Assembly (NCBI GenBank): GCA_025352785.1
Contig: JANXSD010000014.1
Coordinates: 1-45,155, forward strand
Direction: 5' to 3'
DNA length: 45,155 nucleotides
Source: Bacteroidota bacterium
GTDB lineage: Bacteria; Bacteroidota; Bacteroidia; AKYH767-A; OLB10
The notes under the pieces: model-generated
Told to the model about the DNA's origin: nothing
Database searches by the model: none
Seen by the model: only the letters and a program-made list of their open reading frames with translations
Position numbers and translations under genes: made by a program
Shown here: positions 2,032-39,043 of the stretch, one piece after another
How positions within the stretch are numbered: the first letter of the stretch is position 1
Layout of the letters: the number at the start of each line of letters is the position of its first letter

Positions 2032-2973
2032 TTAGAAATAACGAGGTGTTACGATTTTATTTTTATTGAAAGAGAAATCATACCCTAATGTGATTTCATG
2101 TGTTCCTGAATTATAACGTTGCAAATCGGTGATGGTATAGTCGTACGAATATCCCATGCGTAATTGTTTCGTTAGTTGAAACTGAACAATAGCCGCCCAA
2201 GAGTCACCAGTACGATATGAACCACCAACCCATAATACTTCGTTAAATAAAACATGTGCACCAAGATCAGCTTCTAAAGGAGCACCACTTACTACTTTCA
2301 ACATCATGGTAGGTTTAATTTTTACATTTTCATTAACCGTAAAAACATAACCACCCATTAAGTAGTAATGCCAGTAATCCATTTTAACTTGATTAACCCC
2401 TTTCCCTGTTTTTGCATCCACCGAATTTTGTAGGATTCTAGGAATTGATAAGCCACCATAATATGTTTTGCTATTGTAATAAATTCCGAAACCTACATTG
2501 GGAACTGTTAATTTTGGAGTTCCTAAAAATGAATTGTCAAATTGATCTTGTGTCTTTACATCTTCTAATTGTTCCACATGATTAATTACTCCGGCTTGTA
2601 ATCCCATGGAAAATGTTCCAGATTTCATTGGAACACGATAAGCGTAATTTGCAAAAACGCCAAGATCCTTGGTCACGCCAATTTGCTCGTTAAGAATGGT
2701 TAAACCTACACCAACTTTTTCGTTTCGTAATGGAGTGTGGCCACTAAACGTTTGAGTTTTTGGAGCACCTTCTATGCCTACCCATTGGTTACGGTACAAT
2801 CCTGTTAATGCAGCATGTTCTCTAGATCCCGCATAGGCAGGATTAATAAACATTTCATTATACATGTATTGTGTGAACTGTGGTTCAAATTGTGCTTGTG
2901 CTTGAAAGCAAATCACAATTAATGAGGCTGCCAAGAATATTTTCTTGTCTGCAAATAGTTTTAACCTGTTCAT
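2032..2973 (-). CDS. PorP/SprF family type IX secretion system membrane protein
   Basis: PorP/SprF-family outer-membrane beta-barrel-like protein. The mature N-terminus after the signal peptide has the family hallmark FTQYMYNEMFINPAYAGSRE, followed by the LTGLYRNQW motif. The C-terminus has RMGYSYDYTI and SGTHEITLGYDF and ends in an aromatic residue (PRYF), as barrel proteins do. I chose the ATG at 2971-2973 because it gives a standard signal peptide (MNRLKLFADKKIFLAASLIV, cleavage after QAQA); an in-frame ATG at 2998-3000 would add nine residues. In Flavobacterium johnsoniae, SprF is required for secretion of the adhesin SprB, and PorP-like proteins are generally paired with type B cargo. 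Here it lies 54 nt (or 27 nt with the longer start) after a giant SprB-repeat gene, so it is probably that protein's dedicated partner. Confidence 0.92.
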   Translation of the reverse strand: MNRLKLFADKKIFLAASLIVICFQAQAQFEPQFTQYMYNEMFINPAYAGSREHAALTGLYRNQWVGIEGAPKTQTFSGHTPLRNEKVGVGLTILNEQIGVTKDLGVFANYAYRVPMKSGTFSMGLQAGVINHVEQLEDVKTQDQFDNSFLGTPKLTVPNVGFGIYYNSKTYYGGLSIPRILQNSVDAKTGKGVNQVKMDYWHYYLMGGYVFTVNENVKIKPTMMLKVVSGAPLEADLGAHVLFNEVLWVGGSYRTGDSWAAIVQFQLTKQLRMGYSYDYTITDLQRYNSGTHEITLGYDFSFNKNKIVTPRYF

Positions 2974-3027
2974 GATTTTGTATAAGATTATCGTATTCAT
3001 TTTTATGTTTGTGTAATTAAAAGAAAT

Positions 3028-6000: not shown

Positions 6001-9000
6001 ATTCCCATGACATAAAACTGGATTAACAGTTTGTGTAATTGAAATAGAAGCCGCGGGTTCATTAATAGATCCACTTAAAGAGGTAGTACAACCATTCACA
6101 TCTGTAATTTCTACTGTGTATACTCCCGTTGTAATATTTAAAAGATCTTGTGAAGTAGAATTGTTACTCCATGAATAAGTATAGGGTGTAGTGCCACCTT
6201 GAACATCTAAATCAATTGCACCAGTGCTTGCACCATGACAAGTTACTTCTGTTATTGATGCAGATGATGTTAACGTGGAAGCATTGTAAGTAATCGTGAA
6301 AGATTTTGATGTGTAGCAACCGTTCGTATCTGTAACAGTTACTGTATAAGTTCCTATAGAAAGACCCGATAAATCTTCTGTTGTATTTCCATCATTCCAT
6401 AAAAAAGTATATGGAGCAGTACCGCCATTGATTGTTAAGTTGATAGATGCATCATTAACGTCATGACAATTTATATTTTGAATAATGGAAGAGATATTTA
6501 AAGCTCCAATTGGTTGCGTCACCGTTGCCGAACCTGAAGTAGTACATTCATTCGCATCAGTAATATTCACTGTATAATTTCCAGCAGCAAGTGATGTGAG
6601 ATCTTCTGTAGTTGAATTGTTACTCCAAGAAAATGTATAAGGTAATGTTCCGCCATTTACAGTTAAATCAATTGCTCCAGTATTATTTTCAAAACATGTT
6701 AATGCTGTTGTTGTAAATGAGGTACTTAATATTTCGGATGGTTGTGTAACAAATAATGTATAAGCAATAGCGCATGCATTATTATCTGAAATTGTAACTG
6801 TGTATGTTCCTGCAGTAAGATTATTTAAATCTTGTGTGTTAACACCATTACTCCATGAATAGGAATAGGGTGGTGTACCTGCAGTTGCAGTAAGATCGAT
6901 TGCTCCATTGTTATCGTTATAACAAGATGCATTTGTAATATAACTGCTAGCATTTAATGCTCCTGGAGGTTGTGAAATTGATTCAGAAGTTATTGCCGTA
7001 CATCCATTGCTATCCGTTACTGTTACTGTATATGTTCCTGCGGTAAGATTTGTTACATCCTGTTGTGGCGATCCTATATTCCATAAATAGGAATAAGGTG
7101 TTGTTCCGCCGTTAACAGTTAAATCAATGCTTCCAGCAGGAAGACCATTGCAAGTAACATTCTGATGTGTTGTTGAAAGTGATAAAGCTAATGATGGTTG
7201 ATTTAATGTAACAACTTGACTGGCCGTACAACTATTATTATCAGTAACGGTAACTGTATATGTTCCAGCAGTGATCGACGATAATGATGAATTTGTTGTA
7301 GAATTATTCCAGTTATATGAATAAGGTGAAGTTCCACCAGATACTGAAGTAGTTATTGTGCCATCTGTGCCATTGTAACAATTAATATCAGTACCAGTTG
7401 CTGAAAAATTTAATGCTGCAAGAGGTTGTGAAATTATTATATCTGTTGTAGAGGTGCAATTGTTAGCATCAGTAACGGTTACTGTATAATTTCCTGATGG
7501 AATTGTATTTAAATTTTGTGTTGTATTGCCGTTGCTCCAAGAATACAAATAGGGTGTTGTTCCTCCAATAACAGTTAGGTTCGCATTTCCTTTTGATTGT
7601 CCAAAACAGTTAACATTTGTGCCAACAATTGAACTCTGTAATTGTAGTGCTGGTTGAGTAATAGCATAACTGTTGTTAATAGTGCAACCATTATTATCTG
7701 TTACTGTAACAGAATAATTTCCTGCAACTAAATTTAAATTTATGGATGTGCCATTGCCATTACTCCAAAGGTAAGTATAAGGTAAAGTTCCACCTGAAAT
7801 ATTTATTGTAGCACTTCCCGTATTATTATCCTTGCATTTAACATTTATTGATGAAGTAGTAGCAGATAATCCAGCAGCGGGTTGTGTTAATGTTACCATT
7901 GCAATCGCTGAACAATTATTCGCATCTGTTACAGTTACTGTATATGTTCCTGCTACTATATTATTTATCATTGAAGTTGTTGCAGAATTACTCCAGTTAT
8001 AGGTATAGTTTCCTATTCCACCTGATGCGGAAACGGAAGCTACTCCCGTTGAAGTTCCATAACATCGTATATCAGTTTTTGTAGTGCTAATATTTAATGC
8101 AGCTGTTGGCTGAGTAATAACTGTTGATAACGCAAAAGTACATCCACGTGTATCCGTTATTGTTACATTATAAGAACCCGCATTTAGCGAATTCAAATTT
8201 TGACTCGTTGCTCCATTGTTCCAGAGGAAAGTATAACCACTAGTTCCTCCCGAAACAGTTAAATTAACGGCACCTGTATTATCGCCATTGCATTGAACAT
8301 TGGTATTAGAATTTGTTGCAGATAGTGCCACCGCAGGTTGTGTTACTGTTGCTTGCTTTGTGATCGAACAATTATTTGCATCCGTTACTGTAACGGTATA
8401 TGTTCCTGCAATTACATTTGAAATATTTTGAGTACTTGTTCCATTACTCCAATTATAGGTGTAAGGAGTAGTACCACCATTAACTGTTAAGTTTACCGAC
8501 CCCGTTGATGTGCCATAACAATTCGCATACGTTGCAACTACATTTCCACTTAATGTTGTTGCAGGTTGGTTTATAGAAATAGATGTCGTTGTCGTACATA
8601 AATTTGCATCAGTAATAGTTACAGTATATGTTCCAGCAACGATGTTGTTTAATGATGAAGATGTTGCACCGTTATTCCAATTATACGAATAAGGAGCTGT
8701 TCCACCTGTAACACTACTGCTTATGGTTCCTGTAGAATTTCCGAAACAAAGTACATCTGTTTTAGTTGTACTATTGGCTAATACGGCTAATGGTTGAGTT
8801 ATAGTTGTAGTTGCTGTTGTAGTGCAGTTATGACTATCAGTAACTGTTAAAATATAAGTTCCTGATGTTATATTAGTAAGTGATGATGTTGTTGCTCCAT
8901 TACTCCATGTATACGTATATGGACTTGTTCCACCAGTAACTGTTGATGAAGCACTTCCTGTTGTATTACCAAAACATTTTACATCCATTTTTGATAAGCT

Positions 9001-10872
9001 CACTGCAAGCGAAGCAGTTGGTTGTGTGATTTGTGCAGATACAGTTGACTTACATAAATTAGCATCTGTAATTGTTAACGTAAATGTTCCTGCAATTGTA
9101 TTTGTTAAATTTTGTGATGAAGATCCATTACTCCAAGCATAAGTATAAGGTGTAGTTCCTCCAGAAATGGTTGTATAAATTCCGCCAGTATTCGCACCAA
9201 AGCATGCTACGGACGAAGCTGTTGCAGAAGAACTAAGTGTAAATAAATTTGTAATTGTATAGCTTGCTGTCTTAGTGCAATTATTTGCATCTGTTACTGT
9301 AACAGTATAAGTGCCCAGACATAAATTATTTAAATCTTGATTTGTTTGTGCATTACTCCATAAATAAGTGTATGGCGCAATACCACCACTAAGCGATAAG
9401 TCTATTGAACCATTACAAATTCCAGGACACGTAGCGTTAATAATATTTGTTGATAGGGTTATTCCTGTCGGTTGAGTAATATTTACTGTTTGTAAAGCAG
9501 TACAACCTCCACCATCAGTAACTGTAACTGTATAAGTACCTGCCACAACATTTGATATGGTAGCAGTAGTTGAAGGAGGAGTTGTATTCCAGTTATATAA
9601 ATATGTCCCCGCATATACTGGAATAGCACTTGCTGTTCCAGTCGACGAGCCATTGCATGTTACATTTGTACTTGTTGCTGTGAAATAGGGACTCGGAACA
9701 TAAATATTATAAGAATAGGTTTGAATGCCATTATTAGGGCAAGCGTTATCACGAACAGTAATTGTAAAAGTATTTGGACTTAAACCGATATCAGCAAATG
9801 TGGGTGTCCAACAAAAAGTTAACGTTGGACGATTTCCAGAACTAATAGTATAAGTTGCATTAGGAATTCCGTTGTTTGTTGTAATGCTTACGATTTGTGC
9901 AGCATCTAAGTCTGCAGTATTTATAGTAAAGCAAACTTGTTGATTTGGACAAACAGTAGTATTGAAATTGGAAGTTCCGTTTATACCACTTGCTGTTGGT
10001 AAATTATTACTGCATGCTGTCGTATAAATTTGCATATCGCGAATTGCAGTTCCAATTAATTGATGGTTACGGTATTCTTTAACTAAAATTGCCATTACAC
10101 CAATTTGAACTGCACTCGGAGTAAAGTTTAAATCACCTGTTATAGCATTCATGGTAAACGGAGTGCTTGATGCAATGGGTGTTGTAACAGATGCAGGAGC
10201 AATAAAACTTACGTTTGTTGTGTTGCTAATTTTCGGAGCTACTAATTGATATGCTAATGAATCGCCATCTGGGTCGATTACTCCGTGGTTGTAATTAAAA
10301 TTTTGACCTAAGCAAACAAAGGCAATCGGAATATTTGAAAATGTTGGAGAGCTATTGCAAGGCGCTAATATATTATTCAATGTAGCTTCAACATATAAAA
10401 CAGAACTTGAAGCACAAGGATTTGAAATAGTTGTTATTGCACAGTTTCTGCAACAAACACTATAGCTAAAAACCCAATCAGCTCTTGCAGAGGGTAATGT
10501 TATCGTTGCAGTATAAACAAATTTACGTATACCTGTAGTCGATCCACCTCCACATGTTGATGAGGATGCTGTACATGGAACAGTGATTTCTTGTCCAGTA
10601 CTTGCAATTTTATTAGCTGTTGCATTAAGATTTACATTCGCATTCGCGCTCTTGTAATTTACAGTAATGGTTGCTGGCTCAGCAACACCGCCGCAATCAC
10701 GATAAAAGGTAACTTCTACTTCGTACTGTAATCCTCCCAAACATCGGTATTTAATGTCGGAACCTGCTGCATGTGTTGCATAAACATGTTGCGTTCCGCT
10801 TAAAATAATTCCTAGTCCTAAAAGTATGGACCAAAGAAGGCGTTTGTGATGCTGTTTCATAACTTTTTTCAT
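3028..10872 (-). CDS. Giant SprB-repeat secreted adhesin with T9SS type B (CHU_C) C-terminal domain
   Basis: About 2,614 residues from the ATG at 10870-10872 (MKKVMKQHHKRLLW), which starts just before a signal peptide ending near VYATHAAGSD; a frame-open ATG at 10906-10908 would add 12 unlikely residues. Numbering below is from 10908. Residues about 50-400 are a Cys-rich N-terminal region (RCLGGLQYEVEVTFYRDCGG, CCRNC) with a cadherin/Ig-like DPDGDSLAYQL motif. About 408-2378 are 26 tandem SprB repeats of about 76 aa. About 2380-2530 are two Ig/PKD-like domains. The end is a gliding-motility-associated C-terminal domain (IPNGFSPNGDGTNDYFVIDG, YNRWGNLIY, GTYYFIL), the type B signal for T9SS export. 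First gene of a cassette with PorP/SprF and OmpA-like genes. Likely a cell-surface adhesin by analogy with SprB; its ligand is unknown. Confidence 0.93.
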   Translation of the reverse strand: MKKVMKQHHKRLLWSILLGLGIILSGTQHVYATHAAGSDIKYRCLGGLQYEVEVTFYRDCGGVAEPATITVNYKSANANVNLNATANKIASTGQEITVPCTASSSTCGGGSTTGIRKFVYTATITLPSARADWVFSYSVCCRNCAITTISNPCASSSVLYVEATLNNILAPCNSSPTFSNIPIAFVCLGQNFNYNHGVIDPDGDSLAYQLVAPKISNTTNVSFIAPASVTTPIASSTPFTMNAITGDLNFTPSAVQIGVMAILVKEYRNHQLIGTAIRDMQIYTTACSNNLPTASGINGTSNFNTTVCPNQQVCFTINTADLDAAQIVSITTNNGIPNATYTISSGNRPTLTFCWTPTFADIGLSPNTFTITVRDNACPNNGIQTYSYNIYVPSPYFTATSTNVTCNGSSTGTASAIPVYAGTYLYNWNTTPPSTTATISNVVAGTYTVTVTDGGGCTALQTVNITQPTGITLSTNIINATCPGICNGSIDLSLSGGIAPYTYLWSNAQTNQDLNNLCLGTYTVTVTDANNCTKTASYTITNLFTLSSSATASSVACFGANTGGIYTTISGGTTPYTYAWSNGSSSQNLTNTIAGTFTLTITDANLCKSTVSAQITQPTASLAVSLSKMDVKCFGNTTGSASSTVTGGTSPYTYTWSNGATTSSLTNITSGTYILTVTDSHNCTTTATTTITQPLAVLANSTTKTDVLCFGNSTGTISSSVTGGTAPYSYNWNNGATSSSLNNIVAGTYTVTITDANLCTTTTSISINQPATTLSGNVVATYANCYGTSTGSVNLTVNGGTTPYTYNWSNGTSTQNISNVIAGTYTVTVTDANNCSITKQATVTQPAVALSATNSNTNVQCNGDNTGAVNLTVSGGTSGYTFLWNNGATSQNLNSLNAGSYNVTITDTRGCTFALSTVITQPTAALNISTTKTDIRCYGTSTGVASVSASGGIGNYTYNWSNSATTSMINNIVAGTYTVTVTDANNCSAIAMVTLTQPAAGLSATTSSINVKCKDNNTGSATINISGGTLPYTYLWSNGNGTSINLNLVAGNYSVTVTDNNGCTINNSYAITQPALQLQSSIVGTNVNCFGQSKGNANLTVIGGTTPYLYSWSNGNTTQNLNTIPSGNYTVTVTDANNCTSTTDIIISQPLAALNFSATGTDINCYNGTDGTITTSVSGGTSPYSYNWNNSTTNSSLSSITAGTYTVTVTDNNSCTASQVVTLNQPSLALSLSTTHQNVTCNGLPAGSIDLTVNGGTTPYSYLWNIGSPQQDVTNLTAGTYTVTVTDSNGCTAITSESISQPPGALNASSYITNASCYNDNNGAIDLTATAGTPPYSYSWSNGVNTQDLNNLTAGTYTVTISDNNACAIAYTLFVTQPSEILSTSFTTTALTCFENNTGAIDLTVNGGTLPYTFSWSNNSTTEDLTSLAAGNYTVNITDANECTTSGSATVTQPIGALNISSIIQNINCHDVNDASINLTINGGTAPYTFLWNDGNTTEDLSGLSIGTYTVTVTDTNGCYTSKSFTITYNASTLTSSASITEVTCHGASTGAIDLDVQGGTTPYTYSWSNNSTSQDLLNITTGVYTVEITDVNGCTTSLSGSINEPAASISITQTVNPVLCHGNSTGAIDVTVQGGTFPYIYSWNNGETQEDLLGMTAGVYTLTITDSKNCTLVQSMVIDEPTAVLNATFQTTNPACYGELTGNIATTISGGTPIYSILWNNQPSQADLNSIAAGSYSIEITDANGCVLSQTIIVDQPLAILNTQSQITHVDCNGNGTGSISLQPNGGTSPYSYQWSNGNTTAIANGLVIGNYQYTITDSHQCIINGSANIWQPQAAISLTNTNTNVNCYGSSSATIDLTVSGGTIPYNFNWSNSITTEDLSNLNAGDYTVTVTDANGCISIQTFTISQPASALSATGNVTNLSCYSNNSGSINTTTNGGTAPYIYSWTNGETTSSISSLSAGTYAVLVSDANGCTFTSSYTVTQPTAQLSATATTTNVTCNGNNNGTISLITSGGTFPYTYNWSNGNTTSNPQNLISGLYTVTITDANNCIYVYTQNVQQPSAVLDITYFVTDVKCFGNSTGAISALVNGGTNPYTYLWSDGTTSSSIQNLAAGIYTLTVTDVNNCIKTMPVSVSQPIAPISANAQSYQVNCYNALNGKIDLIVSGGMGNYSYQWNNGDTLQNLTNLLSGIYSVIITDQNGCTASASTTITQPGTNLIISATVNNVNCKGSGNGSIELTVSGGTPSYTYLWSNGNTTSLLNAVSSGSFSVTVTDAHGCSLQYSTTIQEPGNQLAITANAKAANCISNIKGNIYIQVNGGTSPYSFVWNDGQTAQNRLNEIPGTYTVTVTDGNGCNDAKTAAIADTSVLAIESKGDANICMGDKAILIADSMPGVTLQWNYNGVPLNGATSNSFVTPVAGSYTLTATSSCGTYTSNSIDVIVRTMNSVSINNNVIICKGEKIQLVAGGGIDYQWSPSLGLNFDNIPNPTASPEKTTEYIVTVKDQYGCKATAAVTITLGCDTLDIPNGFSPNGDGTNDYFVIDGINNYPGNSIFIYNRWGNLIYKQHDYDNKWNGSSNVGGALFGEELPNGTYYFILNLNNEQKPINGFVVIRR
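3775..9687 (-). repeat. 26 tandem SprB repeats (about 228 bp / 76 aa each)
   Basis: 5,913 bp encoding 26 head-to-tail units of about 76 residues. The consensus runs as a Cys near a TNVxCxG motif, then GGTxPYxYxWSNG, AGTYTVTVTDxNxC and a closing TQP. Nearly every unit has two cysteines at fixed positions. At DNA level the TVTVTD segment is the best conserved: many copies of a roughly 20-nt stretch reading cagtaacagttactgtatat or close variants on the plus strand. Units differ at enough positions that this is an old, diverged array rather than a recent expansion. Units 1 and 26 are the most divergent. Confidence 0.93.
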
Positions 10873-10908
10873 GCGTAGTATCGTTGAATTGCAATGGTTA
10901 GGGTGCAA

Positions 10909-21540: not shown

Positions 21541-22119
21541 TTGCAAAATAAAGAACTTGTAATTATTGGAGGACCGAATGGGTCGGGTAAAACCACTTTC
21601 GCTAGAATATTTCTCGAACAAAATAAAAAATATATTTTTATTAATGCCGACGAAATTGCGAAAGAGAATTCTGATGACAAGTCTAAGGGTGGAAATATAG
21701 GTGCTGGTAAAATTTATTTTAAACGGATTGAAGAATTGTTTAAAAAGGGAAAATCATTATTAATTGAATCTACAATGTCAGGATTATTTCTTGGCAGGTT
21801 TTTGAAAGAGTTTAGAAAAGCGGGTTATTCAATTAAATTAATTTATATTACAATTAATAGTGCAGAAGGATGCATTCAACGTATTCAAGATAGAATAAAA
21901 AAAGGGGGTCATTTTGTACCTGATGAAGACGTTATTAGAAGATATTATAGAGGACGAAAGTATTTCTGGAATAATTATCGAAACTTTGCGGACGAATGGC
22001 ATTTATATAATAACACCGATAGGTTTGAGATGATTGCAATTGGTAACAAATCAAATTTTGTAATTGCAAATGATATATTGTATGATAACTTTATTAATTC
22101 ACTAGATGAGAATGGCTAA
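21541..22119 (+). CDS. Zeta-toxin-like P-loop kinase / AAA ATPase, inserted between nuoH and nuoI
   Basis: 192 residues from a TTG start; the only nearby upstream in-frame stop is at 21508, and TTG puts the Walker A motif (GGPNGSGKTT, residues 10-19) at the N-terminus as in the family. FINADEIA (residues 33-40, Asp37-Glu38), LLIESTMSG and RIKKGGHFVPDEDVIRRYYR match the zeta-toxin-like ATPases of COG4185. Zeta proteins phosphorylate UDP-N-acetylglucosamine; activity of this branch is not established, so toxicity is inference. The 3' end overlaps the next small gene by 14 nt, the usual arrangement for this family and its small companion. Located 43 nt after nuoH, hence probably cotranscribed with nuo. 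Confidence 0.85.
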   Translation: MQNKELVIIGGPNGSGKTTFARIFLEQNKKYIFINADEIAKENSDDKSKGGNIGAGKIYFKRIEELFKKGKSLLIESTMSGLFLGRFLKEFRKAGYSIKLIYITINSAEGCIQRIQDRIKKGGHFVPDEDVIRRYYRGRKYFWNNYRNFADEWHLYNNTDRFEMIAIGNKSNFVIANDILYDNFINSLDENG

Positions 22120-28695: not shown

Positions 28696-31600
28696 ATGTC
28701 ATTGTTAATTAAGTTAGGTTCAACATTTATTAATAAAACTTATTTGTTGCTTGGGGGCATTGTCATCTTTTTTTGTACAAATGCAAACGCAAGTTTAAAT
28801 CTAGATATCAATGGTAAGCTCTTAAATCATTCAAATAATATAACCCCGCTTTTATTTGGATTGGGTGTTACCGTCTCCAATTTTAATGGAGTAAATATTA
28901 GTTGCAATGGCGTTAATGATGGTACGATTTCTATTGTCCCTAATGGTGGTGTTAATCCGTATACTTATGCATGGTCGAACGGTGCTTCGGCCGCAGATTT
29001 AACTGGACTTTTTGCAGGCACGTATACTGTAACGGTTACTGATAATAATGGAGACACGGAATCAACTACAGTTACATTAACAGAACCCAATCAATTAATT
29101 CTAACTAATTCAACTACCAATGTGCTTTGCAATGGTGCATCAACAGGAGCAATTGATTTAACAGTTGCTGGAGGAACAACTAATTATTCGTATGCTTGGA
29201 GTAATGGAGCTATCACGCAAGATCTCACTGGAAAAATTGCTGGTACTTATAACGTAACCGTTACCGATGCGAATTCGTGTACTGCTACAACCTCCGCAAC
29301 CATCACACAACCTGCCGCATTAAATTTATCGACAACAGTTACAAATGCAGGATGTGCTGGAGCACAAACAGGAAGTGTAAACTTAACAGTTTCGGGAGGT
29401 AATCCATCTTACACTTACTTGTGGAGTAATGGTGCACTTACACAAAATTTAAATAACGTTGCAGCAAATACGTATACTGTAACCGTTACCGATTTGAATT
29501 CTTGTACTGCTAAAATATCAGCAACTGTTTCGCAGCCATCAACAATTAATATTAATATTATTCCCGTTAATGGAACATGTAACGCAGCAAATGGCTCTGC
29601 TTCTGCTATCGTTGTTGGAGGAACATTGCCCTATTCGTATTTATGGAATACGGGATCCGTATCTCCTGTAATTAGCGGACTTGCAGCAGGAACATATACT
29701 GTAACCGTTACTGATTTATTTGGTTGCACAGGAATTTCGTCAGCTTTAGTTGGCAATAGCGGTTCACCAATAATTACTGTTACAGCAATAACGAATGTGT
29801 CCTGCCATAACGGTAATAACGGGGCAATCGATATAACTATTTCAGGGGGTCAACCATTATATAGTTATTCATGGAGTAACGGAGCTTTAACACAAGATTT
29901 ATCGGGGCTCGCTACAGGTGTTTTTACAGTTACTGTAACGGATAATAATTTATGTTCATCTGCAAAATCAATTACCGTTAGTCAACCTCAAGCAATAACA
30001 TTTACGAATACAAATACTAACGTATCCTGTTTCGGCGGAACAAATGGCGCAATTGATATCACTGTTTTTGGCGGAACAATTCCATACAGTTATTTATGGA
30101 ATTCAGGAGCGATTACACAAGATATTTCTGGAAAGATTGCAGGTACATATCTTGTTACTGTTACTGATGCAAATAGTTGCACAGCTAATTCGTCGTTTAC
30201 ACTCACACAACCTACAACTTTAGCATTAATAGTAAGCACCAATCAGGCAACATGTGGAAGTGTTAATGGTTCCGCTACAGCAACTCCATCAGGAGGTACT
30301 AGTCCTTATATTTATTTATGGAATACCAGCGCTACAACGGCTACAATAAATGGATTATCTCCTGCCATCTATACCGTTACAGTAACAGATTTTAACGGTT
30401 GTACTATTTCAAAATCTATTCAAGTTACATCGGCAAATGCACCAGTTATCTCGAGTGCTCTGGTAACAAATGTTTCTTGTAACGGAGGATCGAATGGTGC
30501 AATAGATATTTCTGTAACTGGAGGAGTTGGAACGATATCTTATTTGTGGAGCAACAGTAGTGTATCACAAGATTTAACAGGACTTTCTATAGGTACATTT
30601 ACTGTAACAGTTACTGATGCTAATCTTTGTACCACTTCAGCAAACTACACTTTAACCCAACCAGCGAGTATCAATGCAACTGCAATAATCACAAATTTAG
30701 CATGTAATGCAGTCCCTACAGGAGTAATTAATATTACACCATCAGGCGGTACGGGAGCGTATACTTATTTATGGAGCAATGCAGCAACAACACAAGATAT
30801 TTCTTCTGTTTCTGCAGGTTCTTTTTCGGTAACTATTACTGATGTGTTTAGTTGTACAGCCGTAAAAATCTTTAATGTTACACAACCTTTAGCACTTAAT
30901 ATAGCTTCTGTTGTTACAAATGTAAGTTGTCATTCAGGTAATAATGGAAGTATAAATATTACTGTAAGTGGAGGCGTTAGTTCCTATACCTTTCAATGGT
31001 CAAATGGAATTCTTACGGAAGATTTAGTTGCACTTACTTCAGGAACTTATACCGTAACCGTTACCGATCAAAATGGATGCAAAGCATCTGCTTCGTATCC
31101 CATTACTCAACCTGCAACATTAGCTGTAAGTTTTACTAGTATAAATAGTAGCTGTGGTTCTAGCAATGGGTCTATTAATGCGAATGCAATTGGAGGAACA
31201 ACACCATATACTTATCTCTGGAGTAATAATGCCACTACGCAACAGATTACCTCACAATTGGCAGGAACATATACTGTAACAATTACCGACCTTAATTCCT
31301 GTACAGTGATAGGAACAAAAACAATTTCTAATCAAGCTGCTCCGGTTATTAGTGTTATTACAACAAGTCCTGTATTGTGTTTTGGTGGAAGTACAGGTTC
31401 CATTACATTAACAATTACAGGTGGTACTTTTCCGTTAACTTATTTGTGGAGTAATAGTGCTACAACTAAAAATATTAATGGAGTTGTTGCCAATACGTAT
31501 ACCGTTACAGTAACGGATGCAAACAATTGCACTACAACAGCTATTGATTCAGTTCTTCAACCTTCTGCTCTTAGTATAGTTTTTACTGCAACGCAACCAA

Positions 31601-34600
31601 CTTGTGGAAATGCGAATGGAAATATCAATGCTGCTGCTAATGGAGGTAATCCTGGATATACTTATTTATGGTCAACTGGAACTTCAGGCCCATCAATTAC
31701 GAATCGATCAGCTGGAAATTATACGGTAACTGCAACTGATGCGAATGGATGTACGAAGTCATTTGTATATAATTTAACAAATATTCCTGGACCTAGTATC
31801 AGTTTAACAAGTTCACAAAATGTTTCTTGTTTTTTAGGTAGCAATGGCGCTATCAATATTACAATAAATGCAGGTACAGCACCATTTAGTTATTTGTGGT
31901 CCAACAATGATACTTTAGAAGATATATCAAATTTAATTTCTGGAACTTATTCTGTTGTTGTTACTGATTTCAATAGTTGTACTGCAACAAGAACTATAAA
32001 TATTTCACAACCTTCCATAATCTCAGGATCATTTACTACCACACAAACATTTTGCGGATTAGCATTAGGAAGTACTCAAGTGAATGTTTCAGGAGGAACA
32101 CCTCCTTATACTTATTTATGGAGTAATTCAGCAACAACAGCAGCAATAAACAATCTTTTTGCAGGTCAATATAGTGTAACAATTACTGATTTACGTGGTT
32201 GTACCAAAATTAAAACAGTAAATGTTACACAAGCTAACGGACCAGTTATATCAATTATCAGCCAAACGGATGTTAGTTGTAATGGTGGAATTAATGGTGC
32301 AATAGATATTGATGTTTCAGGTGGTGTTCAACCTTATACTTATTCCTGGTCCACTACTGCAGTTACTCAAGATATCAGCAACTTAACTACGGGTAACTAT
32401 ACTGTTTCTGTTACAGATAATATTGGTTGCTCAGATTCGCTTTCCATTTTTGTGGATCAACCATTGAAAATTGCCATTTCATCAGTTGTCACAAAGGCGA
32501 GATGTGGACAAGCAAATGGCGCTATCAATAATGTTATATCTGGTGGAACATCACCTTATTCATATTTGTGGTCGAATGGGGGATTAAGTTCATCCATTTC
32601 AAATATAGTTGCTGGAAATTATACGTTAACGGTAACTGATTTTAATAACTGTGACTCTATTTTTTCTTTTAGTGTTGGCACAATTGCAGGCCCTACACTC
32701 ACATTAGATTCTACTAGAATTCCTAAATGTAATGCAAGTGTAAACGGTGCTATTTATCTTTCAAAAGCAGGTGGACAATCGCCTTACCAATATCTTTGGA
32801 ATGATGGAGTAATAACGTTGAGCAGAACAAATATTGGCGGCGGAATTTATACGATTACCATCACTGATTTTTTCGGATGTAGTAACTCTTTAACTGTTAA
32901 TTTGCCAGCGCCAACATCCGTATCTGCATCGTTTACTGTTACCAATGCAACTTGTAATTTGTCAAATGCAACTGTAATTGTTGCAGGTGGAGGAGGTACC
33001 TCACCATACACTTACAAATGGAATGGCGGAAGTACATCAGCATCGTTAGTAAATATTAGTGCAGGAAGTTATACGGTTACAGTAACTGATTCTTTAGGAT
33101 GTAAAAAAACAGATTCAGTACAAGTTGTTTCCAGTGGATTTCCTACAATTCAATTATTAAGTTCAACGGCGCCATTGTGTTTTGGAACTTCGGATGGAGT
33201 CATTAATGTAAATGTATCAGGAGGAACAACTCCTTACAATAGTTTAATATGGTCGAATGGAGATACTGGTTTAACTGCTGATAGTTTAATTGCGAATACT
33301 TACACAATTACCGTGACTGATTTTGTTGGATGTACAACAACTGCAAATTATGCAATTACAAACCCAGCACTTTTATTCGCATCTCTAACAAGTGTTTCTT
33401 CTAATTGTAGTCAGCCTAATGGCAGTATATCACTCACTACTGGCGGTGGTACTTCACCATTCACTTACTTATGGTCGAATGCTGCAACAACAGGTTCAAT
33501 TGCATCTCTCATTCCGGGTATTTATGTAGTAACAACTACCGATTCTCATAATTGTAAATCTATAGATTCAATTACGGTAGGCAACATTAATGCTCCAACA
33601 TTAGTGATTACTAATCAACAAAATGTATTATGTAAAAATGGAAGTAATGGTTCCATAGATATCAGTACAAGTGGTGGCGCTGGCCCTTACACATACATTT
33701 GGTCAAATGGATTTCTAACGAAAGACATTTCGGGATTAATAGCTGGTGTTTATACTTTAACAGTAACTGATTTTGCTGGATGTACTTCTTCTATCTCTAC
33801 AACCATTACAGAACCATCAGCATTAACTGCTCTTTCAATAGTTACTAATTCAACATGTGGAAATGCAAATGGAAGTATTCAATTAACTCCTTCTGGAGGA
33901 ACTCCGGGATATTTTTATATTTGGTCTAACTCAGCGAATACTTCTATAATTAATGGATTATTAGCTACAACATATTCTGTTACTATTTCCGATAATAATG
34001 GATGTACGCTGCAACAAAATTTCGTTGTCAATAATATTGATGGTCCTACAGTTCAGCTGCAGTCTAAAGTAGATGTAAAATGTGCTGGTGGAAGTGATGG
34101 TTCATTAACTGTAGTTGTTCAACAAGGTGTCACACCCTATTCTTATTTGTGGAGTAATGGAGTTTTAACTGCTGATAATTTAAATATCCCTGAAGGAATC
34201 TATACGGTTACAGTAACTGATTTTAATGGATGTACTGTTGTTTATTCAGATACTGTTTCTGCTCCTGCACCCTTTATCATTAGTGCAACAATTAGTAACG
34301 CCACTTGTGGATTGAATAACGGAATAATCGTCGTTCAAGTTACTGGAGGAAATCCCGGTTACTCTTACTTATGGTCAACTTCAGATGCTTCTTCTACTAT
34401 TTCATCTCTTGCAGCTGGAAGTTATTCTTTAACAATAACGGATACTCGTTTCTGTACGAAGGATACTGTTTTCAATTTAATAAATACGGGACTTCCAATA
34501 ATTAATTTAATAAAAATTGATAGTGTTTCTTGTAATGCATTAGCTGATGGAAAAATTAATTTAAATGTTACAGGGGGTGTTCAGCCATATTCATTTACAT

Positions 34601-36201
34601 GGATTAACACAACACAAATCACAGAAGATGTAAATAATTTAAGTGCAGGAAATTATTCTGTTATCGTTACAGATAATCAAGGTTGTACCTCAACTAATTC
34701 ATATTTTGTAGGAGAACCTGCTGCAATCACTGTTGCATTTCCGCTCATTCTTGATGCAACGTGTGGAGTTAATAATGGTTCCGTTGCTGTATCTGTAAGT
34801 GGCGGTATCCCATCTTATTCTTTACTTTGGTCAACTGGTTCTATAAATGATACGCTGTTTAATATTCCTGCTGGAAGCTATAGTTTAACAGTTACCGATT
34901 CTAAAGGATGTACTAAATCAAGTATTGCGAATGTGAGTAATTTAAGTGGACCAACTATTACTGTTATTGATTCAGGAAATGTTTCTTGTCCTAGTGGTAA
35001 TAATGGCTTTGTTACAATCTCTGTTAGGGGCGGAACATTACCATTAGATTATTCTTGGACTAATCTTCCTGATAAAACCCCCTCTATTACAAACTTAATT
35101 GCTGGAATTTATACTGTCACTGTTAAAGATGCGAGTGGTTGTATCGCAGTTCGATCAATAGAAGTAAAGCAACCATCACCAATAGTTGTTAATTCGGTAA
35201 TACCACAAAAAAATCCACCCTATAATCTTAAATGTAATCAATCTTCTGATGGGGAAATTTATCTTAGCTTAAATGGTGGAACTGCACCTTATAATTATAT
35301 ATGGAGCAATGGAGCAGTCACACAAAATATATTGGGTCTTCCAGCAAATACGTATACTGTTTTAATTACTGATCAAAATAATTGTACAAGTACTTCTGCT
35401 TATGTTCTTAGTGAACCACCACAATTAATTTCAATTGCAGGATTAGATTTTACTGTCTGCGGAGAAACATCTGCAATGCTTTCAGCAAATACACCAACAT
35501 ACGGAATCGGTTATTGGACAGCCGTTACTAATTCAGGCATAATTGTTTTTTCGGATTCAACATCTGCTATTACTAATGTAACTAATATGCCTGCTGGTGA
35601 TAACATTTTTAAATGGACGGTAACTGATGGAAAATGTTTGGTATCATCAAATGTTACTGTTGCGATCACCTCTAAAATTGAAGCAATACCTGGTATTGAT
35701 AGAACTATTTGTGGTAGTGAAACAAATTTAAATGCTACTCGACCACAATTCGGCTCAGGGTCATGGTCAACGTTTTCATCAGGAGTTAGTATTGAGTTTG
35801 TATCGAGGGCATTTACTGCAATATCAAATTTAAATTTCGGAAATAATTTCTTTCAGTGGACTGTTGTCAATGGTACTTGTCGGGATTCAGCTAAAATAAA
35901 TATTTACCGACGAGACTCACTCGATTGCTTATCCAATATACAACTACCAAATGCATTCTCTCCAAATGCAGATGGATATAATGATGAATTTCTTGTTAAA
36001 GGATTAGAAGATTATCCCGATAATGAATTCGTTGTTTATAACCGATGGGGAAGTAAAGTTTTTGAGAAGAATAGTTATAGAAGTAATTGGAAGGGGACAA
36101 ATAATAATGGTGAAAACTTGCCAGATGGAACTTATTTCGTTATTTTAAAAGTGCGCCAACTAAATAAAATTTTTAAAACGTATGTAGACCTACGACGATG
36201 A
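28696..36201 (+). CDS. Giant SprB-repeat secreted adhesin with T9SS type B (CHU_C) C-terminal domain
   Basis: 2,501 residues. Signal peptide with hydrophobic core LLLGGIVIFFC, cleaved near NANA (about residue 32). Residues 58-2241 are 29 tandem SprB repeats of about 75 aa. About 2242-2405 are two related domains starting AGLDFTVCGETSAMLSAN and PGIDRTICGSETNLNATRPQ. From about 2408 a gliding-motility-associated C-terminal domain (LPNAFSPNADGYNDEFLVKG, YNRWGSKVFEK, DGTYFVILKVRQ) marks a type B T9SS cargo. Its stop overlaps the next PorP/SprF start as ATGA. It lacks the Cys-rich N-terminal region of its minus-strand paralogue, so the two adhesins probably differ in binding or display. The ligand is unknown. 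Confidence 0.93.
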   Translation: MSLLIKLGSTFINKTYLLLGGIVIFFCTNANASLNLDINGKLLNHSNNITPLLFGLGVTVSNFNGVNISCNGVNDGTISIVPNGGVNPYTYAWSNGASAADLTGLFAGTYTVTVTDNNGDTESTTVTLTEPNQLILTNSTTNVLCNGASTGAIDLTVAGGTTNYSYAWSNGAITQDLTGKIAGTYNVTVTDANSCTATTSATITQPAALNLSTTVTNAGCAGAQTGSVNLTVSGGNPSYTYLWSNGALTQNLNNVAANTYTVTVTDLNSCTAKISATVSQPSTININIIPVNGTCNAANGSASAIVVGGTLPYSYLWNTGSVSPVISGLAAGTYTVTVTDLFGCTGISSALVGNSGSPIITVTAITNVSCHNGNNGAIDITISGGQPLYSYSWSNGALTQDLSGLATGVFTVTVTDNNLCSSAKSITVSQPQAITFTNTNTNVSCFGGTNGAIDITVFGGTIPYSYLWNSGAITQDISGKIAGTYLVTVTDANSCTANSSFTLTQPTTLALIVSTNQATCGSVNGSATATPSGGTSPYIYLWNTSATTATINGLSPAIYTVTVTDFNGCTISKSIQVTSANAPVISSALVTNVSCNGGSNGAIDISVTGGVGTISYLWSNSSVSQDLTGLSIGTFTVTVTDANLCTTSANYTLTQPASINATAIITNLACNAVPTGVINITPSGGTGAYTYLWSNAATTQDISSVSAGSFSVTITDVFSCTAVKIFNVTQPLALNIASVVTNVSCHSGNNGSINITVSGGVSSYTFQWSNGILTEDLVALTSGTYTVTVTDQNGCKASASYPITQPATLAVSFTSINSSCGSSNGSINANAIGGTTPYTYLWSNNATTQQITSQLAGTYTVTITDLNSCTVIGTKTISNQAAPVISVITTSPVLCFGGSTGSITLTITGGTFPLTYLWSNSATTKNINGVVANTYTVTVTDANNCTTTAIDSVLQPSALSIVFTATQPTCGNANGNINAAANGGNPGYTYLWSTGTSGPSITNRSAGNYTVTATDANGCTKSFVYNLTNIPGPSISLTSSQNVSCFLGSNGAINITINAGTAPFSYLWSNNDTLEDISNLISGTYSVVVTDFNSCTATRTINISQPSIISGSFTTTQTFCGLALGSTQVNVSGGTPPYTYLWSNSATTAAINNLFAGQYSVTITDLRGCTKIKTVNVTQANGPVISIISQTDVSCNGGINGAIDIDVSGGVQPYTYSWSTTAVTQDISNLTTGNYTVSVTDNIGCSDSLSIFVDQPLKIAISSVVTKARCGQANGAINNVISGGTSPYSYLWSNGGLSSSISNIVAGNYTLTVTDFNNCDSIFSFSVGTIAGPTLTLDSTRIPKCNASVNGAIYLSKAGGQSPYQYLWNDGVITLSRTNIGGGIYTITITDFFGCSNSLTVNLPAPTSVSASFTVTNATCNLSNATVIVAGGGGTSPYTYKWNGGSTSASLVNISAGSYTVTVTDSLGCKKTDSVQVVSSGFPTIQLLSSTAPLCFGTSDGVINVNVSGGTTPYNSLIWSNGDTGLTADSLIANTYTITVTDFVGCTTTANYAITNPALLFASLTSVSSNCSQPNGSISLTTGGGTSPFTYLWSNAATTGSIASLIPGIYVVTTTDSHNCKSIDSITVGNINAPTLVITNQQNVLCKNGSNGSIDISTSGGAGPYTYIWSNGFLTKDISGLIAGVYTLTVTDFAGCTSSISTTITEPSALTALSIVTNSTCGNANGSIQLTPSGGTPGYFYIWSNSANTSIINGLLATTYSVTISDNNGCTLQQNFVVNNIDGPTVQLQSKVDVKCAGGSDGSLTVVVQQGVTPYSYLWSNGVLTADNLNIPEGIYTVTVTDFNGCTVVYSDTVSAPAPFIISATISNATCGLNNGIIVVQVTGGNPGYSYLWSTSDASSTISSLAAGSYSLTITDTRFCTKDTVFNLINTGLPIINLIKIDSVSCNALADGKINLNVTGGVQPYSFTWINTTQITEDVNNLSAGNYSVIVTDNQGCTSTNSYFVGEPAAITVAFPLILDATCGVNNGSVAVSVSGGIPSYSLLWSTGSINDTLFNIPAGSYSLTVTDSKGCTKSSIANVSNLSGPTITVIDSGNVSCPSGNNGFVTISVRGGTLPLDYSWTNLPDKTPSITNLIAGIYTVTVKDASGCIAVRSIEVKQPSPIVVNSVIPQKNPPYNLKCNQSSDGEIYLSLNGGTAPYNYIWSNGAVTQNILGLPANTYTVLITDQNNCTSTSAYVLSEPPQLISIAGLDFTVCGETSAMLSANTPTYGIGYWTAVTNSGIIVFSDSTSAITNVTNMPAGDNIFKWTVTDGKCLVSSNVTVAITSKIEAIPGIDRTICGSETNLNATRPQFGSGSWSTFSSGVSIEFVSRAFTAISNLNFGNNFFQWTVVNGTCRDSAKINIYRRDSLDCLSNIQLPNAFSPNADGYNDEFLVKGLEDYPDNEFVVYNRWGSKVFEKNSYRSNWKGTNNNGENLPDGTYFVILKVRQLNKIFKTYVDLRR
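28867..35418 (+). repeat. 29 tandem SprB repeats (about 226 bp / 75 aa each), two subtypes
   Basis: 6,552 bp encoding 29 units with the same core as the minus-strand array (GGTxPYxYLWSNG, AGTYTVTVTD, xxCT). Two subtypes are visible. A units have a C-x-G-G/S-x-N-G-A-I start and usually close with QP. B units have a shorter TCGxxNGS start, two residues fewer before the first beta strand, and usually hand over to a GP-containing linker instead of QP. Units 10-28 alternate A, B, A, B strictly; earlier units are irregular (B at 4, 7 and 11). Unit 1 lacks the second Cys and unit 29 has a short insertion before its first Cys. Confidence 0.9.
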
Positions 36202-37127
36202 GAAAAAAAATATTATTTTTCGTAATGGTGATGTGTTGCATTACTATCAGCGTATGGTCACAACAAAGTCCATTGTTAAGTCATTATATGTTTAATGGGT
36301 TGTTAATTAATCCTGCTTATGCAGGAAGTAAAGAATATGTTAGCAGTACTTTAATGTATCGTAAACAATGGTCAGGTTTTGATGGCGCCCCTGTAACGTA
36401 TTCAGGTACCATTAATGGTTTAATTAAAAAGAAAAATTTGGGATTGGGGGCATTAATTCAACAAGATAAAATTGGCGTTACAAAGGAAACTGATATCTAT
36501 GCTATGTTAGCTTACCATCTTCCATTAGGGGTTGGAAAGTTATCAGTAGGCATTCAAGCTGGAATTAGTAACTTTAATTCGGAAGTTGTTAAGTTGGTTT
36601 ATTGGGATCCTAATGATAAAGTTTATGATTACAATACCTTTAGTAGTGTTTTGCCTAATGCAGGTTTAGGAGTTTACTATTACCAAACTAGATTTTATGC
36701 AGGATTGTCTGCTCCATTTTTAATAAGTTATGATAAATCACAAGGTGGTTCTTTTGATCCTAGTACTCCTGTTCATCATCAAGTAAGAAGATATTTCGCT
36801 ACTGCAGGTGCAGTTTTTGAAAACGAAAATGATTTAAAATTTAAACCCTCTTTCTTGATACGATATGAAGGGAATGCGCCTGTTCAATACGACTTAAATT
36901 TAAATATTTTGATAAATGATATTTTCTGGATCGGGGCATCTTACCGTTCCAAAGAAGCCATTGTTGGGATGTTCGAATATCAATTAAGTAAGAAACTACG
37001 AATTGGTTATTCTTATGATTATTCTCTCGGTGATTTAAGTAATTACAATTCTGGTTCACATGAAATAATGTTAGGCTATGATTTTGGTTTCTCTGTTTTG
37101 AAAATGAAATCTCCACGCTATTTTTAA
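36198..37127 (+). CDS. PorP/SprF family type IX secretion system membrane protein (second copy)
   Basis: 309 residues with a signal peptide ending near SVWS. Family hallmark LSHYMFNGLLINPAYAGSKE at the mature N-terminus, then STLMYRKQWSGFDGAP; C-terminus LRIGYSYDYSLGDL and SGSHEIMLGYDFGF, ending PRYF like the minus-strand copy. Starts inside the stop codon of the giant gene (ATGA), implying translational coupling and a fixed ratio. Likely the SprF-like partner needed to export that adhesin (inferred from SprF/SprB in F. johnsoniae). Confidence 0.93.
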   Translation: MRKKILFFVMVMCCITISVWSQQSPLLSHYMFNGLLINPAYAGSKEYVSSTLMYRKQWSGFDGAPVTYSGTINGLIKKKNLGLGALIQQDKIGVTKETDIYAMLAYHLPLGVGKLSVGIQAGISNFNSEVVKLVYWDPNDKVYDYNTFSSVLPNAGLGVYYYQTRFYAGLSAPFLISYDKSQGGSFDPSTPVHHQVRRYFATAGAVFENENDLKFKPSFLIRYEGNAPVQYDLNLNILINDIFWIGASYRSKEAIVGMFEYQLSKKLRIGYSYDYSLGDLSNYNSGSHEIMLGYDFGFSVLKMKSPRYF

Positions 37128-37129
37128 TT

Positions 37130-39043
37130 ATGAGAAAACAATATATCATCTTATTTTCAAGTTTATTGATAACCCTTTTAACAGGATGTGTTCAAGTTCG
37201 TTTACGTACTGCTAATGAAAATTATGATCAATTTGCTTACGCTACGGCTGCAAAAGATTATGAATTTGTTTTGAGAAATAAAATTGATAATCAAGCAATG
37301 ATCAATATTGCTGACTGCTATCATCAAATGGGCAATGCAGTTAAAACAGAATTTTGGTATCGAAAAATCATAAAGTTTCAAGACGCTAAACCTGAATGGA
37401 ATTTATATTTAGCCGAAGCGCTGATGCGTAATGCAAAATATAGCGAAGCTCAAATTGAATTGGAAAAATATTTGGAATTAAATAAAAGTGATTTTCGTGC
37501 ACAACGAATGTTGCATGCTTGTTTAAATCTTCAGCAATTTGATATGGATACAACGTTGTATACCATTAATGCATTAAGATTAAATACTCCAAAACAAAAT
37601 TATTTTAGCCCTGCATTCTACCGTTCAGGAATTGTTTTTCTTTCCGATAAATATTACAAAGGTTCTAATCGAACGAAATCTGATTGGACTGGTGAACGTT
37701 ATTTGGATATGTTTTATGCAAAGAAAACTGATCACGGTAATTGGCTTGACCCCGAACCTATCAGAGGTGATGTAAATGGAAAATTTAATGAAGGTCCATT
37801 AGTTTTTTCACGAGATAACAATACAATGTATTTTACTAGAAATAATTACATGAGTAATGTTGTTGAAAAAAATAAACGGAATATCAATGTTCTGAAAATT
37901 TATAAGTCAGAAATGGTGGAAGGCTTATGGAAAATTAAAGGTGAAATGTTGTTCAATAGCGGTGAATATTCTGTTGGTCATCCAGCATTAAATCAAGACG
38001 GAACGATTATGTATTTTACCTCCGATATGCCATGGGGTTATGGCGGAACCGATATTTATATGGTCCAATCTGTCGGTGATAATAATTGGAGCCAACCAAC
38101 AAATTTGGGAGCTCCAATTAATACTGAAGGAAATGAAATGTTTCCATTCTTGCAAAATGATTCTACATTATTTTTCGCTTCAGATGGGCTTGAAGGATTA
38201 GGTGGTCTTGATATCTTCGAATCAAATAAAGTGAATGACGTATGGTCACAACCAATTAATTTAGGACGACCAATAAATTCATCCATGGATGATTTTAGTT
38301 ATATCATTGATTCAGCTTCTGTGTCTGGTTATTTCTCCTCTAATCGTGAAAGTGTAGAAGATAAAATTTTTAGCTTCGAAAAGAATCTCCCAAAACTACA
38401 AATTCAAATTTCTGTAATCGATCAAGTTGGAAATTCTCCAATTGATAAAGTTTATATCGCCGTGCAACAAGAGGGTAAAAAAGATACTGTTGTCGTTACA
38501 AATGCAAGTGGCAAAGTTCGTTTTAAAGCGGAAGGGGATAAGGATTATTCTTTAAAATGTGATAATCAAAATTATTATTTGATAAATACTTCTACAACAA
38601 CGAAAGGAAAACGTTTTTCCGAAACTGTAAATGTGGAAGTGGCAATGAAAAAAATAAAAGTAAATAGCCCTGCAATATGGGAAGGTGTTGCATTCAATAA
38701 AAAAGATTGGCAATTAAAATTGTCATCTGCAAAAGCATTATCGGATTTAGTAAGATTGCTTACAGAAAATCCTCGCATTCAAATAGAAATTGGTTCTTAC
38801 ACGGATTCACGAGGTAAGGATCCCGAAAATCTCAGTTTGACACAACGTCGTGCTGAATTGGTAATGCAGTATTTAATATCACAAGGAATAAAGGCAGAGC
38901 GACTAACTGCCAAAGGTTATGGTGAAACTAAATTGCTGAATCATTGTATTAATGGTCTTTTATGCATCGAAGAAGAACATGAAATAAATAATCGCATTGA
39001 AATTACGGTAACAAGTATTTCAAAAGATACCGCTCTCAAATGA
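37130..39043 (+). CDS. OmpA-family lipoprotein with TPR-like, PD40 and CRD domains (PorE-like)
   Basis: 637 residues. Lipoprotein signal with lipobox LLTGC (Cys20), in contrast to the non-lipidated copy at 1-2005. Residues about 30-150 are TPR-like. About 160-410 are a PD40 propeller (PALNQDGTIMYFTSDMPWGY, FFASDGLEGLGGLDIFES). About 420-510 are a CRD-like fold. The C-terminus is an OmpA_C domain (IEIGSYTDSRGKDPENLSLT, QRRAELVMQYLIS, NNRIEITV) that should bind peptidoglycan. Two nt follow the PorP/SprF stop, and rarA starts inside its stop. Likely outer-membrane lipoprotein anchoring the secretion partner to the cell wall (inference). Confidence 0.92.
   Translation: MRKQYIILFSSLLITLLTGCVQVRLRTANENYDQFAYATAAKDYEFVLRNKIDNQAMINIADCYHQMGNAVKTEFWYRKIIKFQDAKPEWNLYLAEALMRNAKYSEAQIELEKYLELNKSDFRAQRMLHACLNLQQFDMDTTLYTINALRLNTPKQNYFSPAFYRSGIVFLSDKYYKGSNRTKSDWTGERYLDMFYAKKTDHGNWLDPEPIRGDVNGKFNEGPLVFSRDNNTMYFTRNNYMSNVVEKNKRNINVLKIYKSEMVEGLWKIKGEMLFNSGEYSVGHPALNQDGTIMYFTSDMPWGYGGTDIYMVQSVGDNNWSQPTNLGAPINTEGNEMFPFLQNDSTLFFASDGLEGLGGLDIFESNKVNDVWSQPINLGRPINSSMDDFSYIIDSASVSGYFSSNRESVEDKIFSFEKNLPKLQIQISVIDQVGNSPIDKVYIAVQQEGKKDTVVVTNASGKVRFKAEGDKDYSLKCDNQNYYLINTSTTTKGKRFSETVNVEVAMKKIKVNSPAIWEGVAFNKKDWQLKLSSAKALSDLVRLLTENPRIQIEIGSYTDSRGKDPENLSLTQRRAELVMQYLISQGIKAERLTAKGYGETKLLNHCINGLLCIEEEHEINNRIEITVTSISKDTALK

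Follow-up and report, generated by a model that had tools for sequence, protein, structure and literature searches.

A conserved alternation of two domain subtypes in a predicted SprB-repeat surface adhesin of a Bacteroidota bacterium

The closest described systems are the SprB repeat arrays (PF13573) of T9SS type B proteins, two gene arrangements of F. johnsoniae and the GhpA protein of Aureispira. For F. johnsoniae, the available part of PMC12618676 proposes that adhesin-PorP-PorE triads anchor adhesins statically and describes mobile substrates as being without a PorE gene; the available part of PMC12635249 reports that SprF, the partner of SprB, needs a twin-cysteine C-tail to bind GldK. 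GhpA (PDB 9flp and others) is described, in the accessible part of PMC11205867, as a heptameric hook secreted by the T9SS. The protein analysed here, P0001, is the SprB-repeat protein on the plus strand of the window, by which the whole analysed stretch of 45,155 nt is meant and in which all coordinates are counted (Table 1). P0001 scored 822.7 bits over 28 stretches with PF13573 (Pfam cut-off 28 bits), which makes it an SprB repeat protein, and 51.6 bits with TIGR04131 (cut-off 35), which makes it a T9SS type B substrate; the CHU_C profile scored 91.2 bits. It resembles other SprB arrays in its repeat family, its sorting domain and the PorP/SprF gene directly downstream, but P0001 has a strictly alternating order of two domain subtypes, A and B, with offsetting loop and linker lengths, and most of those sampled show no order of this kind.

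Table 1. Positions of P0001, its domains and the two genes downstream in the 45,155-nt window
Feature	Position	Strand	Basis
P0001, 2,501-aa T9SS type B surface adhesin (predicted)	28696..36201	+	ORF and profile matches
Domains 1-9, irregular zone, order AAABAABAA	28870..30894	+	
Site after the VTD of domain 1 where Cys2 is absent	29044..29058	+	
B domain 4	29545..29769	+	
B domain 7	30220..30444	+	
Domains 10-28, strict A/B alternation	30895..35199	+	
B domain 11	31120..31344	+	
B domain 13	31570..31794	+	
A14-B15-A16 segment, input of the structure model	31795..32469	+	
B domain 15, part of the structure model	32020..32244	+	
B domain 17	32470..32694	+	
B domain 19	32920..33144	+	
B domain 21	33373..33597	+	
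B domain 23	33823..34047	+	
B domain 25	34273..34497	+	
B domain 27	34729..34953	+	
Two Ig-like domains past the SprB array, resembling the C-terminal part of GhpA	35419..35895	+	
Extra cysteine, aa 2411, right before the sorting domain	35926..35928	+	
CHU_C / T9SS type B sorting domain	35938..36198	+	Profile matches
PorP/SprF family outer membrane shuttle, C-terminal tail without cysteine	36198..37127	+	TIGR03519 284 bits
PorE-like OmpA-domain protein	37130..39043	+	NF052230 385 bits, below the model cut-off of 600

PorP/SprF and PorE-like genes follow P0001 directly, which is the gene order proposed for static adhesins, and the adhesin-PorP-PorE order was present in 18/18 orthologue loci. 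A type B substrate, a PorP/SprF shuttle and a PorE-like gene are likewise what the operon shares with Fjoh_3952-3951-3950 of F. johnsoniae as described in the available part of PMC12618676; by this analogy, which is one of gene order, the operon looks like that of a static adhesin and P0001 is probably held statically at the cell wall. F. johnsoniae SprB/SprF are alike in repeat family name, sorting domain and PorP/SprF partner (PMC12635249, PMC12618676, both from the accessible parts of the texts). Unlike SprF, for which PMC12635249 reports, in the part available, that the twin-cysteine motif is needed, the partner of P0001 has cysteines only in its signal region and a tail without cysteine; and unlike the mobile substrates, which have no PorE gene in the available account of PMC12618676, the operon of P0001 contains one. 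GldJ (480.1 bits, cut-off 458.2) and GldK (614.4 bits, cut-off 350) were found in the genome, so gliding in general is possible, and P0001 may have a link to it. The region past the SprB array (35419-36198, plus strand) was the only part of P0001 strongly matched in the PDB, and comparison of aa 2242-2501 with the C-terminus of GhpA (90.4 bits, i-Evalue 3.3e-25) identified a homologous C-terminal region, two Ig-like domains and the sorting domain being shared; Stacked Ig-like domains are present in GhpA too, and in the alignment their cysteines coincide with the two cysteine positions of the SprB domains. GhpA differs in its length of 5,898 aa and in the weak similarity of its best stretch to the SprB-domain profile (34.9 bits).

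The minus strand carries another adhesin operon that is organised in the same way (3028-10908, then 2032-3000 and 2-2029); its adhesin of 2,626 aa has near-uniform 76-aa SprB domains with no alternation and is followed downstream by a PorP/SprF protein (286 bits) and then a PorE-like protein. Elsewhere in the window, a small P-loop kinase-like ORF (21541-22119, plus strand; GGPNGSGKTTFA), zeta-toxin-like by eye, is embedded in the nuo operon together with a short ORF after it; the genes on either side are nuoH-like and nuoI-like (names by eye). Promoter and terminator scans gave only background levels.

For the analysis of domain order, 29 SprB units were cut in P0001 from one VTD motif to the next and were classed by anchor distances. 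The distance from Cys1 to Trp is 22 residues, which defines B, in units 4, 7, 11, 13, 15, 17, 19, 21, 23, 25 and 27, and 23-24 residues, which defines A, in all other units; from VTD to the Cys1 that follows, the stretch measures 30 residues after a B unit and 29 elsewhere, with exceptions before unit 27 (30 residues) and before unit 29 (35 residues). By these distances units 10-28 therefore read A-B-...-A over 19 domains, and every B in P0001 (11/11) is followed by an A. An alternating run of 19 was reached in 0/2000 letter shuffles, and the VTD-to-VTD unit lengths from unit 10 on run 75, 74, 76, 74, 76, 74 and so forth. Sequence identity among units 10-28 was 38.9% for pairs of the same parity versus 33.0% for pairs of different parity (0/20000 shuffles), and lag identity along P0001 was highest at even lags. 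The strict A/B order of units 10-28 and the true period of two domains, both proposed in an earlier note on this DNA, were thus borne out, as was its statement that the minus-strand paralogue (P0002) has no alternation (no parity effect, 4170/5000 shuffles). Units 1-9 likewise gave no parity effect (2777/5000 shuffles); their order is irregular, as the note had said, but they are not random, because both B units there (4 and 7) also bear the GP-type exit.

Separation of the classes was measured with the class-defining indel zones masked. The between-within difference of A and B was matched by 1/10000 permutations, and the nearest neighbour was of the same class in 24 of 28 P0001 domains (14.1 expected), but UPGMA of the masked domains gave no clean split at k=2, so that the check by clustering which the note had suggested still separated A from B, though not as a clean split of the tree; domains of the same class within P0001 share an identity of just about 0.41. 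When a position-specific matrix was trained on other species, again with indel zones masked, it assigned the correct class to 26/28 domains of P0001, to 32/34 in the orthologue L055 and to 31/32 in L062, but to 31/45 in L068. The alternation of two subtypes along domains 10-28 of P0001 is confirmed as real.

When domains were cut at their natural boundary, 11 residues before Cys1, a length of 75 aa was obtained for 11/11 B and 14/17 A domains of P0001, and for 140/161 B and 149/230 A domains in 16 arrays of the family. Compared with A, B has one residue fewer in the Cys1 loop and one more in the exit linker, where a later GP stands in place of the QP of A; the pitch stays at a constant 75 aa because the loss in the Cys1 loop is offset by the gain in the linker. 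The idea that B is the shorter subtype was rejected: unit length depends on where the cut is placed, and what had been described as a shorter B was an effect of the cut point, since all 11 B domains are 75 aa long at natural boundaries.

Orthologues were collected with the C-terminal 275 aa of P0001, for which one full-length match was obtained in 18/23 other family genomes, plus the window; of these 18 orthologue loci from 24 family genomes, 16 gave arrays of at least six units, and L057 and L064, at contig ends, were excluded for having no array of 6 units. Arrays of fewer than 6 units were dropped from the counts of B followed by A and of exit linkers. Runs of the form -B+A- were present in 16/16 orthologue arrays, in which B was followed by A in 155/161 cases, a 30-residue exit occurred after B in 151/161 and after A in 49/232, and a GP-type exit occurred after B in 127/161 and after A in 7/232. 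The strict alternating run is exactly 19 domains long in P0001, L055, L056, L058, L059 and L061, and comprises 31 domains in L068, 27 in L062 and 24 in L065. The best register of P0001 domains 10-28 was at offset +6 on L055 (0.496 vs 0.412 for the next register), +5 on L056 (0.493 vs 0.412), -2 on L058 (0.455 vs 0.410), -1 on L059 (0.442 vs 0.393) and +9 on L061 (0.441 vs 0.421); on the more distant L062, L065 and L068 no single register to P0001 stood out. Best matches of domains 10-28 were colinear for 8/19 domains in L055 and L058 and for 5/19 in L061, well above the 0.5-0.7 of 19 expected by chance, though not for all domains. The irregular order BAABAAABAB of P0001 recurs in L055, L056 and L058, in which the domain order is conserved from domain 3 on, and where species differ in array length they do so on the N-terminal side. 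Since conservation in the orthologues from other genera is domain by domain, the alternation is old; the pattern of P0001 is, judged from these alignments, ancestral to several genera, with the differences between species mainly N-terminal.

The highest DNA identity of any domain pair in P0001 is 0.64, in the N-terminal pair (2,6), and the mean identity within zones is 0.44 for domains 2-9 and falls to 0.36 for the C-terminal zone. TRF reported no repeats over the array because the copies are too diverged, and for the same reason, with the best pair at 0.64, collapse of the array in the assembly is unlikely. In L062 (G011:C61), DNA pairs of domains 9-14 are up to 0.93 identical at even spacing, which is a recent dimer-wise duplication, so duplication by dimers exists as a process in the family; in L068, near-identical A monomers were observed at the N-terminal side.

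The reach of the pattern outside the orthologue family was assessed in 80 named loci, which are the best matches of an A-B-A-B query, and in a phylum sample of 40 regions picked non-randomly from the top PF13573 matches listed; the minus-strand protein was left out of the transition counts for the own genome, and runs of fewer than 12 units were left out of the period analysis. B was followed by A in 93/182 cases in the named loci and in 27/32 in the phylum sample. A GP exit occurred in the named loci after B in 61/187 and after A in 82/859, which is a weak coupling, and in the phylum sample after B in 2/38 and after A in 23/357, where no coupling was seen. A period of 2 with z > 4 was found, among 77 long runs, in 9/15 of the family, 2/4 of the own genome, 3/43 of the named loci and 2/15 of the phylum sample. 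One paralogue in the same genome (L032, G000:C118; 2,531 aa, at a contig end) contains 11 domains in strict A/B order (11/2000 shuffles) with A-rich flanks. The alternation is therefore not private to P0001 but recurs in orthologues of the family and in this paralogue. A rule of Cys loop plus GP linker for all SprB proteins was tried and rejected, because the coupling of B to GP is weak in the named loci and the phylum sample shows none; this particular A/B grammar is therefore best described as a feature of the orthologue family. Higher-order periods do occur now and then in other SprB arrays. Among them, L167 of the Saprospiraceae follows a period of 2 in another pattern (z 6.2, mean identity 0.41) and may be an independent array of two modules, and L195 (G335:C22:16000-34000) has a three-domain period (z 13.3). 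Among the papers listed by a literature search, none dealt with an alternation of SprB repeats or with disulfides between SprB domains.

Each domain has two cysteines, of which Cys1 follows the first strand and Cys2 the VTD motif; given an Ig-like topology, they would lie at opposite poles of the domain. Domain 1 of P0001 has Cys1 and no Cys2, and the 62 cysteines outside the signal region, including that at aa 2411, all find a partner if Cys1 of domain i is paired with Cys2 of domain i+1; pairing within domains would leave one orphan cysteine at each end. The minus-strand protein has many further cysteines, and no such pairing ledger could be drawn up for it. A first domain with Cys1 and without Cys2 was found in 8/9 family genes without truncation at a region end; in the ninth, L071, the first detected domain has both cysteines.

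Joint absence of cysteines was counted in 1987 adjacent pairs; arrays of fewer than 4 units were dropped from this test, runs of fewer than 3 domains from the shuffle tests, and domains that lacked Trp or had an unusual length between Trp and Asp from all cysteine tests. Cys1(i) and Cys2(i+1) were jointly absent in 28/1987 pairs (OR 54, p 1e-28), Cys1(i) and Cys2(i) in 6/1987 (OR 2.0, p 0.14), and Cys1(i+1) and Cys2(i) in nine of 1987 (OR 2.8, p 0.0095). When domains were shuffled within arrays, 27 events at shift +1 were observed versus 10.4 expected (maximum 17 in 300), and 7 versus 12.7 at shift 0; counts at shift -2 were likewise elevated when L195 was included (16 vs 8.4, maximum 15). In L195, absence of Cys1 from one domain repeatedly goes with absence of Cys2 from the next, which contributes 9 events, a third of all; with L195 left out, 18 events versus 7.3 expected (maximum 15) remained, in 12 arrays versus 5.0 expected (maximum 10). 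The 83 discordant pairs comprise 69 in which only Cys1(i) was missing and 14 in which only Cys2(i+1) was missing, and some of them may be parsing errors. Only Cys2 was missing in 18/68 first domains of arrays versus 62/2137 of all domains. This evidence, good but indirect, suggests that neighbouring domains are joined by a Cys1(i)-Cys2(i+1) disulfide. The A/B switch sits at that same junction, in the Cys1 loop, the exit linker and the residues around them.

A structure model of A14-B15-A16 was computed from an alignment of 122 rows, using 111/119 trimers of the kept loci, and reached a mean pLDDT of 97.2 and a pTM of 0.79; an earlier model of A12-B15 from 4 rows was discarded (mean pLDDT 42.8). 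In the trimer model the A14 strands extend to residue 70 and the B15 strands begin at 77, which leaves a strand gap of 6 residues at the A-to-B junction, and B15 finishes with strands 137-144 and 146-147 before A16 begins at 150, so that the strand is nearly continuous at the B-to-A junction. Short strands at 85-86 and 146-147 are present in B15 only; in domain numbering these residues are positions 10-11 and 71-72, columns that rank with the most class-specific ones, and in the model the two short strands would pair with each other. Differences between A and B cluster, in the position-specific comparison, at the exit side and in the Cys1 loop. That A and B stack differently, as the earlier note proposed, is plausible on this model. 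The best solved match of the trimer model by Foldseek and VIA-align was the GhpA fragment 9flw; Foldseek matched its Ig-like stacks with E 1.8e-10, and VIA-align gave Z 11.4 over 213 residues with an rmsd of 6.6.

The two classes, the offsetting indels, the alternation and the one-by-one conservation in orthologues can be read directly from the sequences, and together with the cysteine statistics, the model and the gene order they can be accounted for in several ways. We favour, with a probability of roughly 0.55 for the whole, a secreted, two-module, disulfide-stapled and statically held rod with two junction types. P0001 would be a cell-surface rod of 29 Ig-like SprB domains, mostly of 75 aa and of two kinds, in which the B-A pair is the repeating unit across domains 10-28. 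Each junction would be stapled from Cys1 of one domain, on its exit side, to Cys2 of the next, on its entry side, and A and B would create junctions of two geometries, whose alternation from domain to domain would determine how stiff and how curved the rod is. Secretion would be by the T9SS, and the rod, an adhesin, would probably be fixed to the cell wall by way of the adjacent PorP/SprF and PorE-like proteins. The strongest competitor for this rod, though an unlikely one, is a historical relic, in which an ancestral B-A pair went through several duplications in the distant past and left a pattern that has persisted without structural selection. Dimer-wise duplication does occur in the family (the even-spaced L062 pairs of up to 0.93), the low same-class identity of P0001 fits, and unrelated period-2 or period-3 patterns exist in arrays elsewhere; yet other genera retain class-specific residues also outside the indels (26/28, 32/34 and 31/32, with 31/45 in L068), loop and linker lengths remain coupled (151/161), and the near-identical A monomers of L068 show that family arrays can change by single domains too. 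Hardly any credence is left for a recent dimer amplification towards the C-terminal side of P0001, as the earlier note had suggested. The regular part does sit C-terminally and L062 shows dimer amplification, but amplification was rejected for P0001 itself: DNA identity is at most 64% and that pair is N-terminal, the C-terminal 19 domains are colinear with those of other genera, identity within zones is lower C-terminally, and the species differ in length at the N-terminal side.

Ig domains often contain an internal disulfide, and with two conserved cysteines per domain the bonds of P0001 might be closed inside each domain, A and B then differing in loop packing only; this is quite improbable, as co-loss within domains was not above chance (6/1987; 7 events against 12.7 in shuffles) and the first domain keeps Cys1 without Cys2 in 8/9 genes. 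Somewhat less probable again is lateral packing, in which several chains would associate side by side, in the manner of the heptameric grappling hook, with A and B forming two faces of the fibre. The GhpA-like C-terminal 260 aa, together with the heptamer described in the accessible part of PMC11205867, make an oligomeric rod a possible alternative, and the fragment 9flw was the best solved match of the trimer model; P0001 has shown no evidence of oligomers, however, and the A/B differences concentrate at the exit side and the Cys1 loop.

The higher-order pattern of P0001 is true and well conserved, and the protein that carries it is of a known kind. SprB repeats build very long surface filaments in Bacteroidota, chains that stay stiff under load. 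An old, ordered array of two modules, combined with a disulfide signal in the sequences, provides two testable rules for their geometry, namely which junction is rigid and which cysteines pair. More tentatively, and with the balance somewhat against it, SprB adhesins across Bacteroidota could be covalent Cys1(i)-Cys2(i+1) ladders, in which case the alternating junctions, encoded by the offsetting one-residue exchange of Cys1 loop and linker, would here give a rod with a defined straight or twisted shape, kept domain by domain over several genera.
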